Positions 38,175 through 48,288 of a stretch of 48,873 bases of DNA are shown here, piece by piece. A model generated the notes under the pieces. The model did no database searches. It was not told where the DNA came from and was given only the letters and a program-made list of their open reading frames with translations. Within the stretch, counting starts at the first letter, position 1, and each line of letters begins with the position of its first letter. The translations under genes were made by a program, and so were the position numbers. This DNA is from Flavobacteriales bacterium (GTDB lineage Bacteria; Bacteroidota; Bacteroidia; Flavobacteriales; Flavobacteriaceae): NCBI GenBank assembly GCA_004213965.1, contig SGZI01000002.1:1-48873 (forward strand), given 5' to 3'.

Positions 38175-40391
38175 TTAATGAGTGTTTATGATGCTGTTTA
38201 ATGTGCTGCTGGGTCTCATAATTATTTCAGTTTTTTGTTTATCAGTTGAATAATAACCTTGTAAATCCACCTTTTTCCCTTGCATCCCAGTTAATTCACT
38301 AATAATTTTAGACTCACTAATTTTTAGTAAATGATGGAGCTTTTCAAATTCATTTTTAAGTTCAGGTTTTTTGTTTTGGCTTGCTAGAGCTTCAGACCAA
38401 TATAATGCTAAATAATAATGACTACCTCTATTATCAATTTCTCCTGCTTTTCTTGAAGGAGATTTATTGGTAATTAATAATTTTTCAATTGCTAAACCTA
38501 AACAATTTGAAAGTACTAGTGCATTATCGTTGTTATTAGTTTTTCCGAAATGGTCAAGAGAAACTTCTAATGCTAAAAATTCACCTAATGAATCCCATCT
38601 TAAATGATTCTCTTCTGTAAGTTGCTGAACGTGTTTAGGAGCAGAGCCTCCAGCTCCAGTCTCAAATAAACCCCCTCCATTCATTAATGGTACTATTGAT
38701 AGCATTTTTGCACTTGTTCCTACTTCGAGGATAGGAAATAAATCAGTTAAATAGTCTCTTAAAACATTTCCAGTAACTGATATAGTATTTCCCCCCTCTT
38801 TAATTCTTTCTAAACTATATTTAGTTGCATCATAAGGGGATAGTATTTTAATTTCAAGTTCTTTAGTATTATAATCTTTAAGATATTTTTTTACTTTTTT
38901 TATGATTTCAATATCATGGGATCTTTTTTGATCTAACCAGAAAATTACAGGATCTTTTGTTGCATTTCCTCTATCAACCGCAAGTTTAACCCAGTTTTTT
39001 ACAGGGTCATCTTTAACTTGACACATTCTCCATATATCTCCTTTGTTAACTTTTTGTTTAAGAAGTAGATTGTCATTAATATCAGCTAAGCTTACATATC
39101 CATCACTCTCAATTTCAAATGTTTTGTCGTGAGACCCATATTCTTCAGCTTTTTTTGCCATTAATCCAATATTAGAAACACTCCCCATTAATTTTGGATT
39201 GAAGGCTCCATTTTTTTTACAGAAATCTATTGTTGCACTATAAATTGATGCATATGAGCTGTCAGGAATAATCGCTTTTGTATCCATCATTTCATTGTTC
39301 TTGTTCCACATTTTACCTGAATTTCTGATCATTGCCGGCATTGATGCGTCAATGATTATATCGCTTGGTACATGTAAATTTGAAATTCCTTTATCAGAAT
39401 TAACCATTGCGAGATAAGGCCCTTGATCAAATGCTAAATTGATGTCTTTTATAATTTCAGCTTCTAATTTATTATCTAGTTCTTTAATCTTATTTAATAG
39501 TGCTCCAATCCCATCATTTGCGTTTACTTCAATTTTACTTAAAGTTTCAGAATGTTTTTCGAAAACATTTTTTAAAAAAGCCTTGACCACATGTCCAAAA
39601 ATAATAGGATCACTTACCTTCATCATAGTCGCTTTTAAATGTAATGAAAGAAGTATGCCGCTATTTTTTGCATCATCAATTTCTTTTTCTATAAATTCTA
39701 TTAAACCCTTTTTATTCAGTACGGAAACATCAACAATTTCATTTTTTTCAATTAAAAAATTATTTTTTAGAATTTTTCGCTTCCCATTTACATCAACATG
39801 TGAAATGTATGCTTCTGTGTTTTCTTTTAATGTTATAGATTTTTCATTGTTTCTAAAATCACCAGATTTCATAGTTGAAACATGTGTTTTTGAATTCTGT
39901 TCCCATTTCCCCATAGTATGTGGATTACTTTTAGCATAGTTTTTTATTGCTGAAGGAACTCTTCTGTCTGAATTACCTTCTCTTAAAACTGGATTAACAG
40001 CACTCCCTTTAATTTTATCATACTTTTTCTTAATTTCTTTTTCATAATTACTTTCAGGTTCATCAGGATATTCAGGAATGTTATAACCTAGTTGTTGTAG
40101 TTCACTAATAGCGCTCTTTAATTGAGGTGTAGAGGCACTAATATTTGGTAGCTTAATTATGTTTGCTTTGGGATCATGAACTAAATCTCCTAGATAGGTT
40201 AGATCATCGTCAATTTTTTGATTATTATCTAAATTTTTAGAAAAATTAGCTAATATCCTTGAAGACAATGAAATATCTCTAGTTTCTATTGCTATGTTAG
40301 AAGACTTTGTAAATTTTTTTACTATTGGTAAAAGGGAGACAGTTGCTAAAGCAGGCGCTTCATCTGTTTTTGTATAAATAATTTTAGACAT
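38175..40391 (-). CDS. icd: NADP-dependent isocitrate dehydrogenase, monomeric type
   Basis: [66 protein letters not shown]. Confidence 0.93.
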
Positions 40392-40455
40392 TAAATATCA
40401 GAAAATTAGTTTTTTTAAAGATAATCATTGCCAACGAGAAAAAACAGAAAATAAC

Positions 40456-40890
40456 TAACAGATATAAAAAACAAAAGCCACGTCATTGTAGTTTCCTACT
40501 CTAACATGGCTTTTTATGAATTTGCTTTGTAATCGTTTCCCCATTGCTGGTTCAGATAAAATTTGCATTTTGTCTCGACTTCAATGCTCATCCACTCGGA
40601 ATCTAGTTTGCTACTTGCTTTGGAGATTGCTCTCTTTAGCTTGTCTTTCCCTGGACTCCTGTTTAATTGTCTTCAAGAGTTCTGCTGTCCACTCTCATTT
40701 GCATTTGAGCTTCTTTCTTGAACTCTGCTCTTCGGTCTTTCCTAAAAGCGAACTTTTTTGGATTTTCTTCTGAGCATTTTAACTTTAGGTTATAAAATTG
40801 TGCAGGCACACATCTTATGTTTTAAAGCTTGCTTTGGCTTCTTGCTTGCGCATTCTGCTTTCTGCTTTTGAAAACAATATATGTAAAAGA
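40456..40890 (-). ncRNA. Candidate structured non-coding RNA (or long structured rplS 3'UTR), family not recognised
   Basis: Locally elevated GC, purine-rich on the minus strand, no sustained coding frame; GAGA-GCAA-TCTC GNRA hairpin; GAGTTC/GAACTC stem; strong terminator at 40461-40514 oriented for minus transcription. Confidence 0.45.
40461..40514 (-). terminator. Intrinsic terminator (minus-strand orientation)
   Basis: Minus strand reads aaaaGCCATGTtagaGTAGgaaaCTACaatgACGTGGCttttGTTTTTTATA: extended stem plus U-tract. Confidence 0.7.
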
Positions 40891-41023
40891 ACGTTTATTA
40901 CTTTTGAATTCGTATCGTTGCCGATATAGCAATTGCTTCAAATTCTTAGTACTAATATATATTAATATTGTGTAAAAACAAGTGCTTGTATGAAAATTAA
41001 TTTCAACAGTTTGTAAACGTTAG

Positions 41024-41043
41024 TTATTAACAATTGTTAATAA
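41024..41043. repeat. 20-bp perfect palindrome just after rplS stop
   Basis: TTATTAACAATTGTTAATAA. Confidence 0.6.
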
Positions 41044-41049
41044 GTTAGA

Positions 41050-41400
41050 TTAACTTCTTTTTTCTCTTATTTTGGCTTTTTTACCTGTAAGATTTCTGAA
41101 GTAGAATATCCTTGCTCGTCTAACACTTCCTTTTTTATTTACTTCAATTTTCTGAATAGAAGGGGAGTTAATTGGAAAAATTCTCTCTACACCAATAGAG
41201 CCTGACATTTTTCTTATTGTAAAGGTTTCAGTAGAAGATGTACCTCTTCTTTGCAAAACAACCCCTTTAAAAAACTGTATACGAGTTTTATTACCTTCTT
41301 TAATCTCGTAGTACACTGTGATTGTGTCCCCAGAACTAAATGAAGGATGCGTGTTTTTTGTAACAAATTGGTTTTCTACAAAGTTAACTAGTGAGCTCAT
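41050..41400 (-). CDS. rplS: 50S ribosomal protein L19
   Basis: FSSGDTITVYYEIKEGNKTRIQFFKGVVLQRRG...SIGVERIFPINSPSIQKIEV. Confidence 0.97.
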   Translation of the reverse strand: MSSLVNFVENQFVTKNTHPSFSSGDTITVYYEIKEGNKTRIQFFKGVVLQRRGTSSTETFTIRKMSGSIGVERIFPINSPSIQKIEVNKKGSVRRARIFYFRNLTGKKAKIREKRS

Positions 41401-41469
41401 TTTTAATTTTTTTAATTATATCATGCTAACGTGAACAGTTTTTGTTGAGAGGTTAACCTGAAACGCAGG

Positions 41470-41499
41470 CAAAAATAACAATAAATTGATAATTAACAA
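41470..41499 (-). promoter_or_regulatory. Candidate rplS promoter (TTG-N19-TATTTTTG)
   Basis: Matches the Bacteroidota -33/-7 consensus spacing (TTTG...TAnnTTTG) on the minus strand. Confidence 0.55.
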
Positions 41500-41524
41500 T
41501 TATAATTTTATTCTTTATATAAAA

Positions 41525-42196
41525 TTAATTTAAGTCAGGTCTTTTCTTCTTTGTTTCTTCTATTGCCTTCTCCATCCTCCATTTATCAATTTCATTGTTG
41601 TTGCCACTAATTAAGACATCTGGAACTTTCCAGCCTTTATAATCCCTAGGTCTTGTATAAATAGGTGATGAAAGTAAATTGTCTTGAAATGAATCTGTAA
41701 GAGCAGATGTTTCATCTCCTATTACTCCAGGAATTAAGCGAATTATACTATCGCACAAAATAGCAGCAGCGAGTTCTCCTCCAGATAAAACATAGTCGCC
41801 AATAGATACCTCTTTAGTAATGATGTTATCTCTTACTCTTTGGTCAATTCCTTTATAATGACCACAAAGCAGAATTATATTATTAAGTAAAGAGAATTTA
41901 TTTGCAGTTGATTGATTGAGTTTTTCCCCATCAGGTGATAAATAAATAATCTCATCATAATTTCTTTCACTTTTTAGTTTAGAAATACACTTATCAATTG
42001 GTTCAACCATTAAAACCATTCCAGCACCACCTCCAAATTGGTAGTCATCTACAGATTTGTACTTATTAGTAGAATAATCTCTTAGATTATGAATTACAAT
42101 ATTTACAATACCTTTTTCAATACTATTTTTTAAAATTGATGATTCAAAAGGGCTTTTTAATAAATCGGGAACTACAGTGATTATATCTATTCTCAT
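41525..42196 (-). CDS. trmD: tRNA (guanine-N1)-methyltransferase
   Basis: [50 protein letters not shown]. Confidence 0.95.
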
Positions 42197-46860: not shown

Positions 46861-48288
46861 TTACACAGACAATTTCTTACCTAAGTCATCAACAAATTTT
46901 CTAAAATGTTTATCTGTTGAAGATAAATTGTCTACTGTTTTACATGCATGAAGTACAGTAGCATGGTCTCTTTTTCCGATTTGAGACCCAATACTTGCCA
47001 GTGAAGCTTTGGTAAATTTCTTTGCAAAAAACATAGCCAATTGCCTAGCTTGAACAATGTGTCTTTTTCTAGTTTTTGATTGTAATGTTTCAATATCCAT
47101 TTGAAAATAATCTGAAACAATTTTTTGTATATAATCAATAGAGACTTCTCTTTTAGTATTCTTTACAAACTTTTCTATTATTTCTTTAGCTAATTCAATT
47201 GTAATTTCCTTTTTATTAAATGATGCCTGTGCTATTAATGAAATAATAGCTCCTTCCAATTCTCTTACGTTACTTCTTATATTTTTAGCAACATATTGAA
47301 TTACTTCTTCATTCATTTCAATTCCATCACGATATAATTTGTTTTTTAAAATAGATATTCTTGTTTCAAAATCAGGATGTTGTAATTCTGCTGAAAGCCC
47401 CCATTTAAACCTAGACAGAAGACGTAATTCAATATCTTGCATATCAACAGGTGCTTTATCGCTAGTTAATATTACCTGCTTCCCGTTTTGATGTAGGTGA
47501 TTAAAAATATGGAAGAATACATCTTGAGTTCCTGGTTTGCTAGAAAAGAATTGAATATCATCTATTATTAATACATCAATAATTTGATAGAAGTATATAA
47601 AATCATTTCGATTATTTTTTTTGACAGACTCAATATATTGTTGAGTAAATTTTTCAGCTGTTGTGTATAATACTGTCTTTTCAGGATATTTATTTTTTAT
47701 ATCTATACCAATTGCATTTGCTAAATGAGTTTTACCTAATCCAACTCCACCAAAAACTAAAAATGGATTGAATGATGTTCCGCCAGGCTTGTTAGCAACT
47801 GCTATTCCTGCATTTCTAGCCAATCTATTTGAATCACCTTCTAGGAAATTTTCAAATGAATAGTTCGCGTTTAATTGAGATTCAATTTTTACATTTTTAA
47901 TTCCAGGAATTACAAAAGGGTTTTTTAATTCAGGAACATTTTTACTTAAAGGTCGTGTTGCATTTTGAGCCTTTATTTGAGCAGCTCCACTACTAGGTAT
48001 TTTTTCAGTATATGGCTGAGAATTTCCATAAGTATTTTGCATTTTTATAATATAAACTAGCTTTGCATTTTCGCCAAGAGTTTTTTGCAATGCTACTTTT
48101 AAAATCTTAACATAATGCTCTTCAAGCCATTCATAGAAAAACTTACTAGGCACCTCAATACTCAAAACGTCATCATCTAGCTTAACAGCTTTAATAGGTT
48201 CAAACCACGTTTTATATGCTTGAGATTGTATGTTGTCTTTTATAAATTTTAGACATTTTGACCATACTGAACTAGCAGTTAAATTCAT
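46861..48288 (-). CDS. dnaA: Chromosomal replication initiator protein DnaA
   Basis: NPFLVFGGVGLGKTHLANAIG; VLIIDDIQFFSSK; IGKRDHATVLHACKTV. Confidence 0.97.
   Translation of the reverse strand: MNLTASSVWSKCLKFIKDNIQSQAYKTWFEPIKAVKLDDDVLSIEVPSKFFYEWLEEHYVKILKVALQKTLGENAKLVYIIKMQNTYGNSQPYTEKIPSSGAAQIKAQNATRPLSKNVPELKNPFVIPGIKNVKIESQLNANYSFENFLEGDSNRLARNAGIAVANKPGGTSFNPFLVFGGVGLGKTHLANAIGIDIKNKYPEKTVLYTTAEKFTQQYIESVKKNNRNDFIYFYQIIDVLIIDDIQFFSSKPGTQDVFFHIFNHLHQNGKQVILTSDKAPVDMQDIELRLLSRFKWGLSAELQHPDFETRISILKNKLYRDGIEMNEEVIQYVAKNIRSNVRELEGAIISLIAQASFNKKEITIELAKEIIEKFVKNTKREVSIDYIQKIVSDYFQMDIETLQSKTRKRHIVQARQLAMFFAKKFTKASLASIGSQIGKRDHATVLHACKTVDNLSSTDKHFRKFVDDLGKKLSV

Follow-up and report, generated by a model that had tools for sequence, protein, structure and literature searches.

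A putative stand-alone structured RNA gene between rplS and icd of Flavobacteriaceae with a conserved upstream palindrome and a boxA-like element

In bacteria, it is rare for a large and widely conserved RNA to have no known role, and such cases have repeatedly opened up new biology. OLE, ROOL and GOLLD, which are long, highly structured noncoding RNAs of single genes, emerged from comparative genomics, occur patchily within their lineages and were unclear in mechanism at discovery (PMC12286853, as far as its available text goes). In flavobacteria, noncoding RNAs with predicted structure have been reported as the Rfp sRNAs of Flavobacterium psychrophilum, e.g., Rfp18, and the independent transcripts of this species have a median length of 176 bp (PMC9723704, in the part available). 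For E. coli, it is established that boxA recruits NusB/NusE (S10) and can block Rho termination on long untranslated RNA (PMC4807359).

The window, i.e., the whole analyzed stretch of 48,873 nucleotides from a Flavobacteriales bacterium, contains an RNA locus that in kind comes closest to large structured orphan RNAs, e.g., OLE, ROOL and GOLLD (PMC12286853, available text). In comparison, the flavobacterial RNA is smaller, belongs to another lineage, has no Rfam match to any of them, and is distinguished by its boxA-like box and by a conserved palindrome lying upstream. The locus is arranged as follows:

38175-40391: icd, encoding the 738-aa monomeric type
40466-40945, minus strand: whole noncoding RNA gene, about 480 nt, kept at 80–90% in the genus and matched by a covariance model from other genera
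41050-41400: rplS, flanking gene
46861-48288: dnaA, about 6 kb from the palindrome and the RNA locus

A sequence-only reading had proposed a novel structured RNA at 40456-40890 in the gap between rplS and icd; both genes and the gap were found as described. The differing composition noted there was confirmed: the GC content of 40456-40890 was 36.8%, whereas the window as a whole had 28.6% and the stretch 40891-41049 had 24.5%, and only 2% of 435-nt windows were equally GC-rich and 2.6% equally C+T-rich. The minus strand folded 4.2 SD below dinucleotide shuffles, none of 100 being as good, and the plus strand 2.6 SD below. The proposed 5' boundary at 40890 was about 55 nt short, since the transcription start was inferred at about 40945 from the promoter, with its -7 box at 40959-40952. 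The 3' end was set by the T-run of the terminator.

A DNA search of 60 related genomes recovered the whole region at 80–90% identity in four sister species; from other genera it recovered the 3' hairpin of the RNA, likewise located in the rplS-icd gap. With rplS as anchor (present in 160 of 161 genera), downstream DNA was taken from 80 genera, and most of these had an rplS-icd gap of 430–1500 nt with the same features. The family consensus, derived from 67 loci chosen by the terminator alone, runs from the rplS terminator through a palindrome (TTATKAACAATTGTTAAYAA), GTTYATAA and TGTTGATA repeats and a promoter (TTG..TATATTAG) to a box (ACGTTCTTTA), a long A-rich body and a terminator (AAAGCCATRTCA..TGATATGGCTTTTGTTTTT). 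The RNA of relatives is roughly 350–600 nt long. Homologues comprise a longer type A (n = 63), a shorter type B (n = 27) and a few more divergent sequences; both types have boxA, P1 (UUGUUUUUUGA with UCAAGAAAAACAA), P7 (GAAACAU with AUGUUUC), P8 (UUGAAAUAGU with RCUAUUUC) and the terminator hairpin.

Covariation was scored by a G-test with average-product correction against pairing-free alignments simulated along a FastTree tree. In type A, 18 column pairs were significant (E ≤ 0.05, tree null). The alignment of related rplS-icd regions, which had been suggested as a check, placed 16 of these 18 in predicted helices, spread over the P1-enclosed domain, P7 and P8; P1 varied mostly one-sidedly. 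Type B alone, underpowered with 27 sequences, gave no pair beyond the tree null. In the 3' parts, 94–96% of cells pair, and covariation exceeded all 500 shuffles and every slid control in types A and B. The inner terminator arms (AAAGCCAU/AUGGCUUU) showed zero changes in 50 and 27 sequences (77 in total), and the apical pairs covaried. This invariance exceeds what a terminator needs and is partly a selection artefact, since most loci were found via a related terminator motif. For type B, an H-type pseudoknot first drawn by eye (CAAACG with GUUUG across P8) was discarded, as the alignment supports a nested CAAAU/GUUUG pairing with strong covariation.

The predicted fold of the window copy comprises the following parts:

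40870-40878, minus strand: 5' strand of P1 (ATTGTTTTC), a long-range helix, pairing with 40674-40666
40666-40674, minus strand: 3' strand of P1 (GAAGACAAT), pairing with 40870-40878
40691-40828, minus strand: P1-enclosed domain of the genus consensus fold, with hairpins 40828-40782 (with GTGTGCCTGCACA), 40775-40727 and 40710-40691
40598-40659, minus strand: P7-like domain (40659-40651 with 40606-40598) at the position of P7 of other genera, holding the GAGA-GCAA-TCTC hairpin
40516-40595, minus strand: P8 domain, in which 40595-40576 pairs with 40535-40516 around an inner hairpin, marked by pair-keeping changes and by a covarying P8 in other genera
40466-40514, minus strand: intrinsic terminator AAAAGCCATGTTAGAGTAG-GAAA-CTACAATGACGTGGCTTTT plus T-run, with invariant inner arms and covarying apical pairs

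P1 forms in every member of the window genus as well as across types A and B, and P1 and the terminator form in this genus as elsewhere in the family. The P8 of the window (GTGGATGAGCATTGAAGTCG with CGATTACAAAGCAAATTCAT) keeps its pairs in sister species, e.g., by changes from A-U to G-U and from A-U to G-C. Covariance model R1, built without any sequence of the window genus, matched the window at 40471-40587 (E = 2.4e-7). The interior of the window-genus RNA aligns poorly with other genera, and homology there rests on boxA, P1, P8, the terminator and position. A sister genus with a 1.5-Mb genome retains the palindrome, promoter, boxA, GTGTGCCTGCACA hairpin and a compensated terminator (AAAGCCGCAC..GTGCGGCTTT).

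Most helices previously picked out by eye were recovered. The GAGA-GCAA-TCTC hairpin lies at 40635-40624 and does not vary within the genus, the CTCA..TGAG stem is present and grows longer in sister species through compensating changes, the GCATT/AATGC pairing is present in most, and the terminator hairpin spans 40514-40473 with its T-run to 40466. The enclosing GAGTTC/GAACTC pairing can form, but the conformational switch in which it would compete with TTCAAG/CTTGAA is not supported, because TTCAAG/CTTGAA is not conserved even in sister species of the genus.

Known RNAs were not recognized at the locus. An Rfam match would have made the RNA a known one; no family of Rfam 15, including 6S-Flavo, Flavo-1, OLE, ROOL, GOLLD and raiA, reached its gathering score in the window or 29 relatives. 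Weak matches in these sequences (MALAT1, RefA9, PhrS etc.; E about 0.01–5) stayed below gathering and were mostly generic terminators, and a sub-threshold RT-14 match in L010 at the rplS end lay outside the RNA body. 6S-Flavo, 6S, tmRNA, RNase P RNA and SRP RNA are likewise conserved stand-alone RNA genes, and none of them matched at the locus. For RNase P RNA (RF00010), no covariance-model match was obtained there, and the genome's own copy lies at G000:C1:39196-39495. For tmRNA (RF00023), neither a covariance-model nor an ARAGORN match was obtained there, and a full tmRNA was found elsewhere in 13 of 15 related genomes. The initial reading had likewise recognized no conserved core of RNase P RNA, tmRNA ends or SRP RNA. 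Upstream of rplS, the L19-Flavobacteria ribosomal-protein leader (RF03130) was found in six of nine relatives and was unmatched in the window (41400-41525), so that the window genus may have lost L19 autoregulation.

It is extremely improbable that the RNA is an mRNA for one or more small proteins. ORFs of 37–85 aa can be drawn in the window, but they exist only mechanically: type A sense ORFs average 29.6 aa, compared with 27.5 aa in shuffles, indels are frequent and no reading frame is conserved. The original statement that no frame stays usefully open is consistent with this.

An earlier description of the RNA was not found, with literature coverage being thin for subscription journals, and the main text of a 50-genome survey (PMC11109978) has no mention of Flavobacteria, rplS or icd. 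The largest sampled genus of the family (g141, inferred from its size to be probably Flavobacterium) is without the RNA, which sets the RNA apart from the Rfp sRNAs; identity with an Rfp is not strictly excluded by the available part of PMC9723704.

A pattern scan of named genomes gave carriers in Winogradskyella, Maribacter, Zobellia, Aquimarina, Tenacibaculum, Cellulophaga, Arenibacter, Algibacter and others; in most of them, rplS precedes the RNA and icd follows it, both in the same orientation. The order of promoter, structured RNA, terminator and gene is that of a classic attenuator, and the RNA could be a long 5' leader controlling icd in cis through a regulated terminator. In several genera, the RNA unit was also found upstream of icd with rplS elsewhere (L144, L174, L200, L207, L310-L316), and where rplS and the RNA are separate, the RNA usually remains 100–220 nt upstream of icd. 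However, a pentapeptide-repeat gene often intervenes, and the unit also follows rplS without icd next to it, in places facing a convergent gene (L164, L179, L180, L186, L190, L032, L065). In eight sampled genera, icd follows rplS with neither RNA nor palindrome. In addition, a separate icd promoter is predicted beyond the terminator:

40416-40423, minus strand: candidate -7 box of a separate icd promoter, TATCTTTA (TATCTTTG in the sister species), supported by TAnnTTTG enrichment

TAnnTTTG occurred in 43 of 67 RNA-to-icd spacers, compared with nine expected. A cis-leader or riboswitch would always lie upstream of icd and be co-transcribed with it, which does not fit an RNA that occurs without downstream icd and an icd with its own predicted promoter. 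The RNA is retained at loci that rplS or icd has left, and icd has a predicted promoter to itself; on these grounds, the RNA was taken as neither a UTR nor an icd leader. Control of icd in cis is improbable; some room for it is left by the strong long-term link between the RNA and icd.

A stand-alone structured RNA gene between rplS and icd is highly probable. The candidate on the minus strand is backed by covariation beyond the tree null, occurrence in more than 100 genera, lack of an Rfam match, and RNase P RNA and tmRNA lying elsewhere, with no transcript shown as yet. Covarying helices, lack of coding potential and a stand-alone unit are the marks of a large structured orphan RNA and are all present; transcription is inferred only.

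Unusual arrangements were seen in three genomes. In L091 (G030:C1), two tandem units of palindrome, promoter, noncoding stretch and terminator (offsets 55-560 and 602-1050 downstream of rplS), too divergent for the models, precede a gene for dimeric NADP isocitrate dehydrogenase, apparently as a lineage-specific duplication. One assembly has a complete RNA after rplS (L032, G161:C4) and a second, partial copy before icd (L318, G161:C91), of which the 3' half alone remains and integrase-like sequence replaces the 5' half. In L090 (G100:C11), an ABC-transporter (lptB-like) gene is preceded by a short and divergent form of the unit that has the palindrome, boxA and an altered terminator (GGAGCCUUG..UAAGGCUCUU).

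The region upstream of the RNA body and its 5' part contain four conserved elements:

41024-41043, no strand assigned: perfect palindrome TTATTAACAATTGTTAATAA (consensus TTATKAACAATTGTTAAYAA), a conserved upstream element that tracks the RNA
41000-41018, minus strand: two more half-site-like repeats, GTTTACAA and TGTTGAAA (family consensus GTTYATAA and TGTTGATA), in conserved columns of the family alignment
40952-40981, minus strand: flavobacterial-type promoter of TTG, a 19-nt spacer and TATATTAG, with the -7 box at 40959-40952 (conserved TAtaTTag)
40875-40895, minus strand: boxA-like element AACGTTCTTTTACATATATTG, a conserved box resembling rRNA leaders

In nearly all genomes searched, the palindrome was found only at the RNA locus, and it travels with the RNA where the latter is unlinked from rplS. 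It occurs at 47 of 55 rplS-linked loci that have the RNA and at none of the 8 rplS-icd loci that lack it, and is otherwise almost unique per genome; it was therefore assigned to the RNA. The palindrome and its spaced half-sites resemble an array for a dedicated transcription factor or of weak DnaA boxes; no binding protein has been identified. The locus could function mainly as DNA, as a cluster of DnaA boxes or an origin close to dnaA, in which case the RNA would be a by-product or serve to activate the origin: dnaA is about 6 kb away, the TTATKAACA-type repeats resemble weak DnaA boxes, and the locus lies near coordinate 1 in several complete genomes. This is very improbable, however, as consensus boxes (TTATCCACA) are absent from the window, no GC-skew switch occurred within 190 kb of the locus in G019 (the skew of G173 being too weak to read), and DNA binding does not explain covarying RNA helices.

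With respect to transcription of the RNA gene, a -7 type motif was found upstream of boxA in 65 of 98 homologues, compared with 27 expected, mostly at 70–80 nt. The box (ACGTTCTTTA) was more than 80% identical across the 67 loci, which had been selected by terminator alone. Every rRNA leader examined carried a GTTCATT box, usually GTTCATTRNNATATTG, 130–170 nt before 16S; this element, shared by L249-L261, is apparently the Flavobacteriaceae boxA. The leader of the RNA carries ACGTTCTTTATATAATTG, i.e., near its 5' end it has GTTC[TA]TT and a partial downstream match, as expected of a boxA like that of host rRNA leaders. As in rRNA leaders, a promoter is followed by a GUUCUUU/GUUCAUU box ahead of a long untranslated RNA (PMC4807359), but the short box is all that is shared, and neither rRNA nor tRNA follows. 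The balance tips towards a functional box, on resemblance only and without data on NusB/S10 binding or Rho resistance.

Comparative sequence evidence supports a predicted promoter and terminator of its own, a covarying multi-domain fold, absence of coding potential, an upstream palindrome that goes with the RNA, and a unit that does not depend on its neighbors. The locus is probably a stand-alone gene, present in single copy, whose product is a large structured noncoding RNA that is inferred to act in trans, is confined to Flavobacteriaceae as sampled and lies outside Rfam; no transcript has been seen. The palindrome may be the operator for a dedicated regulator, and the boxA-like box may load NusB/S10 and related Nus factors. 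Equipped in this way, RNA polymerase would escape Rho and reach the end of the long untranslated transcript, as it does on rRNA. Once complete, the RNA would act in trans, its most likely role being to scaffold or sequester one or more proteins, with no ligand or target known.

Base pairing to mRNAs is another way in which a stand-alone RNA could act in trans, and it has been proposed for Rfp18 of F. psychrophilum (PMC9723704, available part). This mode is common among bacterial regulatory RNAs, and the P7 loop region of type A (UCAAUACAUUUUGA) is conserved. It remains possible but rather unlikely: conservation is higher in paired columns (mean 1.19 bits) than in unpaired ones (0.76 bits), the main unpaired exceptions being boxA, the most conserved unpaired stretch, and one loop, and the invariant terminator arms are paired. 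Since conservation favors paired columns, action via proteins was preferred to base pairing, and the inference that protein binding is the main mode has about even chances.

R1 matched 106 of 161 sampled Flavobacteriaceae genera, at essentially one place per genome. Since about one third of the sampled genera lack a model match, the RNA is not essential to the family. Outside the family, no convincing match was obtained with R2 over 148 genomes of the order or with R1 over 248 of the phylum; an R2 match in G305 and matches in G266 lay inside coding sequence and were taken as false. Pattern matches in Clostridia, Bacillales and a gammaproteobacterial MAG lacked all other parts and were taken as generic terminators, and viral contigs did not match the terminator pattern. 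Among sampled genomes below 2.5 Mb, R1 matched only in the window genus, so the RNA survived strong genome reduction there.

A new Flavobacteriaceae-specific class of large RNA, with a palindrome-controlled promoter and rRNA-like boxA antitermination, kept in genomes of about 1.1–1.4 Mb and acting in trans via proteins, is put forward in this full form with evenly divided confidence. The RNA occurs in about two thirds of the genera sampled from a family that abounds in the sea, and its promoter, structure and terminator are defined. Since carriers include the culturable Zobellia, Maribacter, Winogradskyella, Aquimarina, Tenacibaculum and Cellulophaga, experiments on the expression of the RNA, its deletion and pull-down of its partners are directly feasible. 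In Bacteroidota, its boxA-like element could also serve to probe Nus antitermination beyond rRNA.
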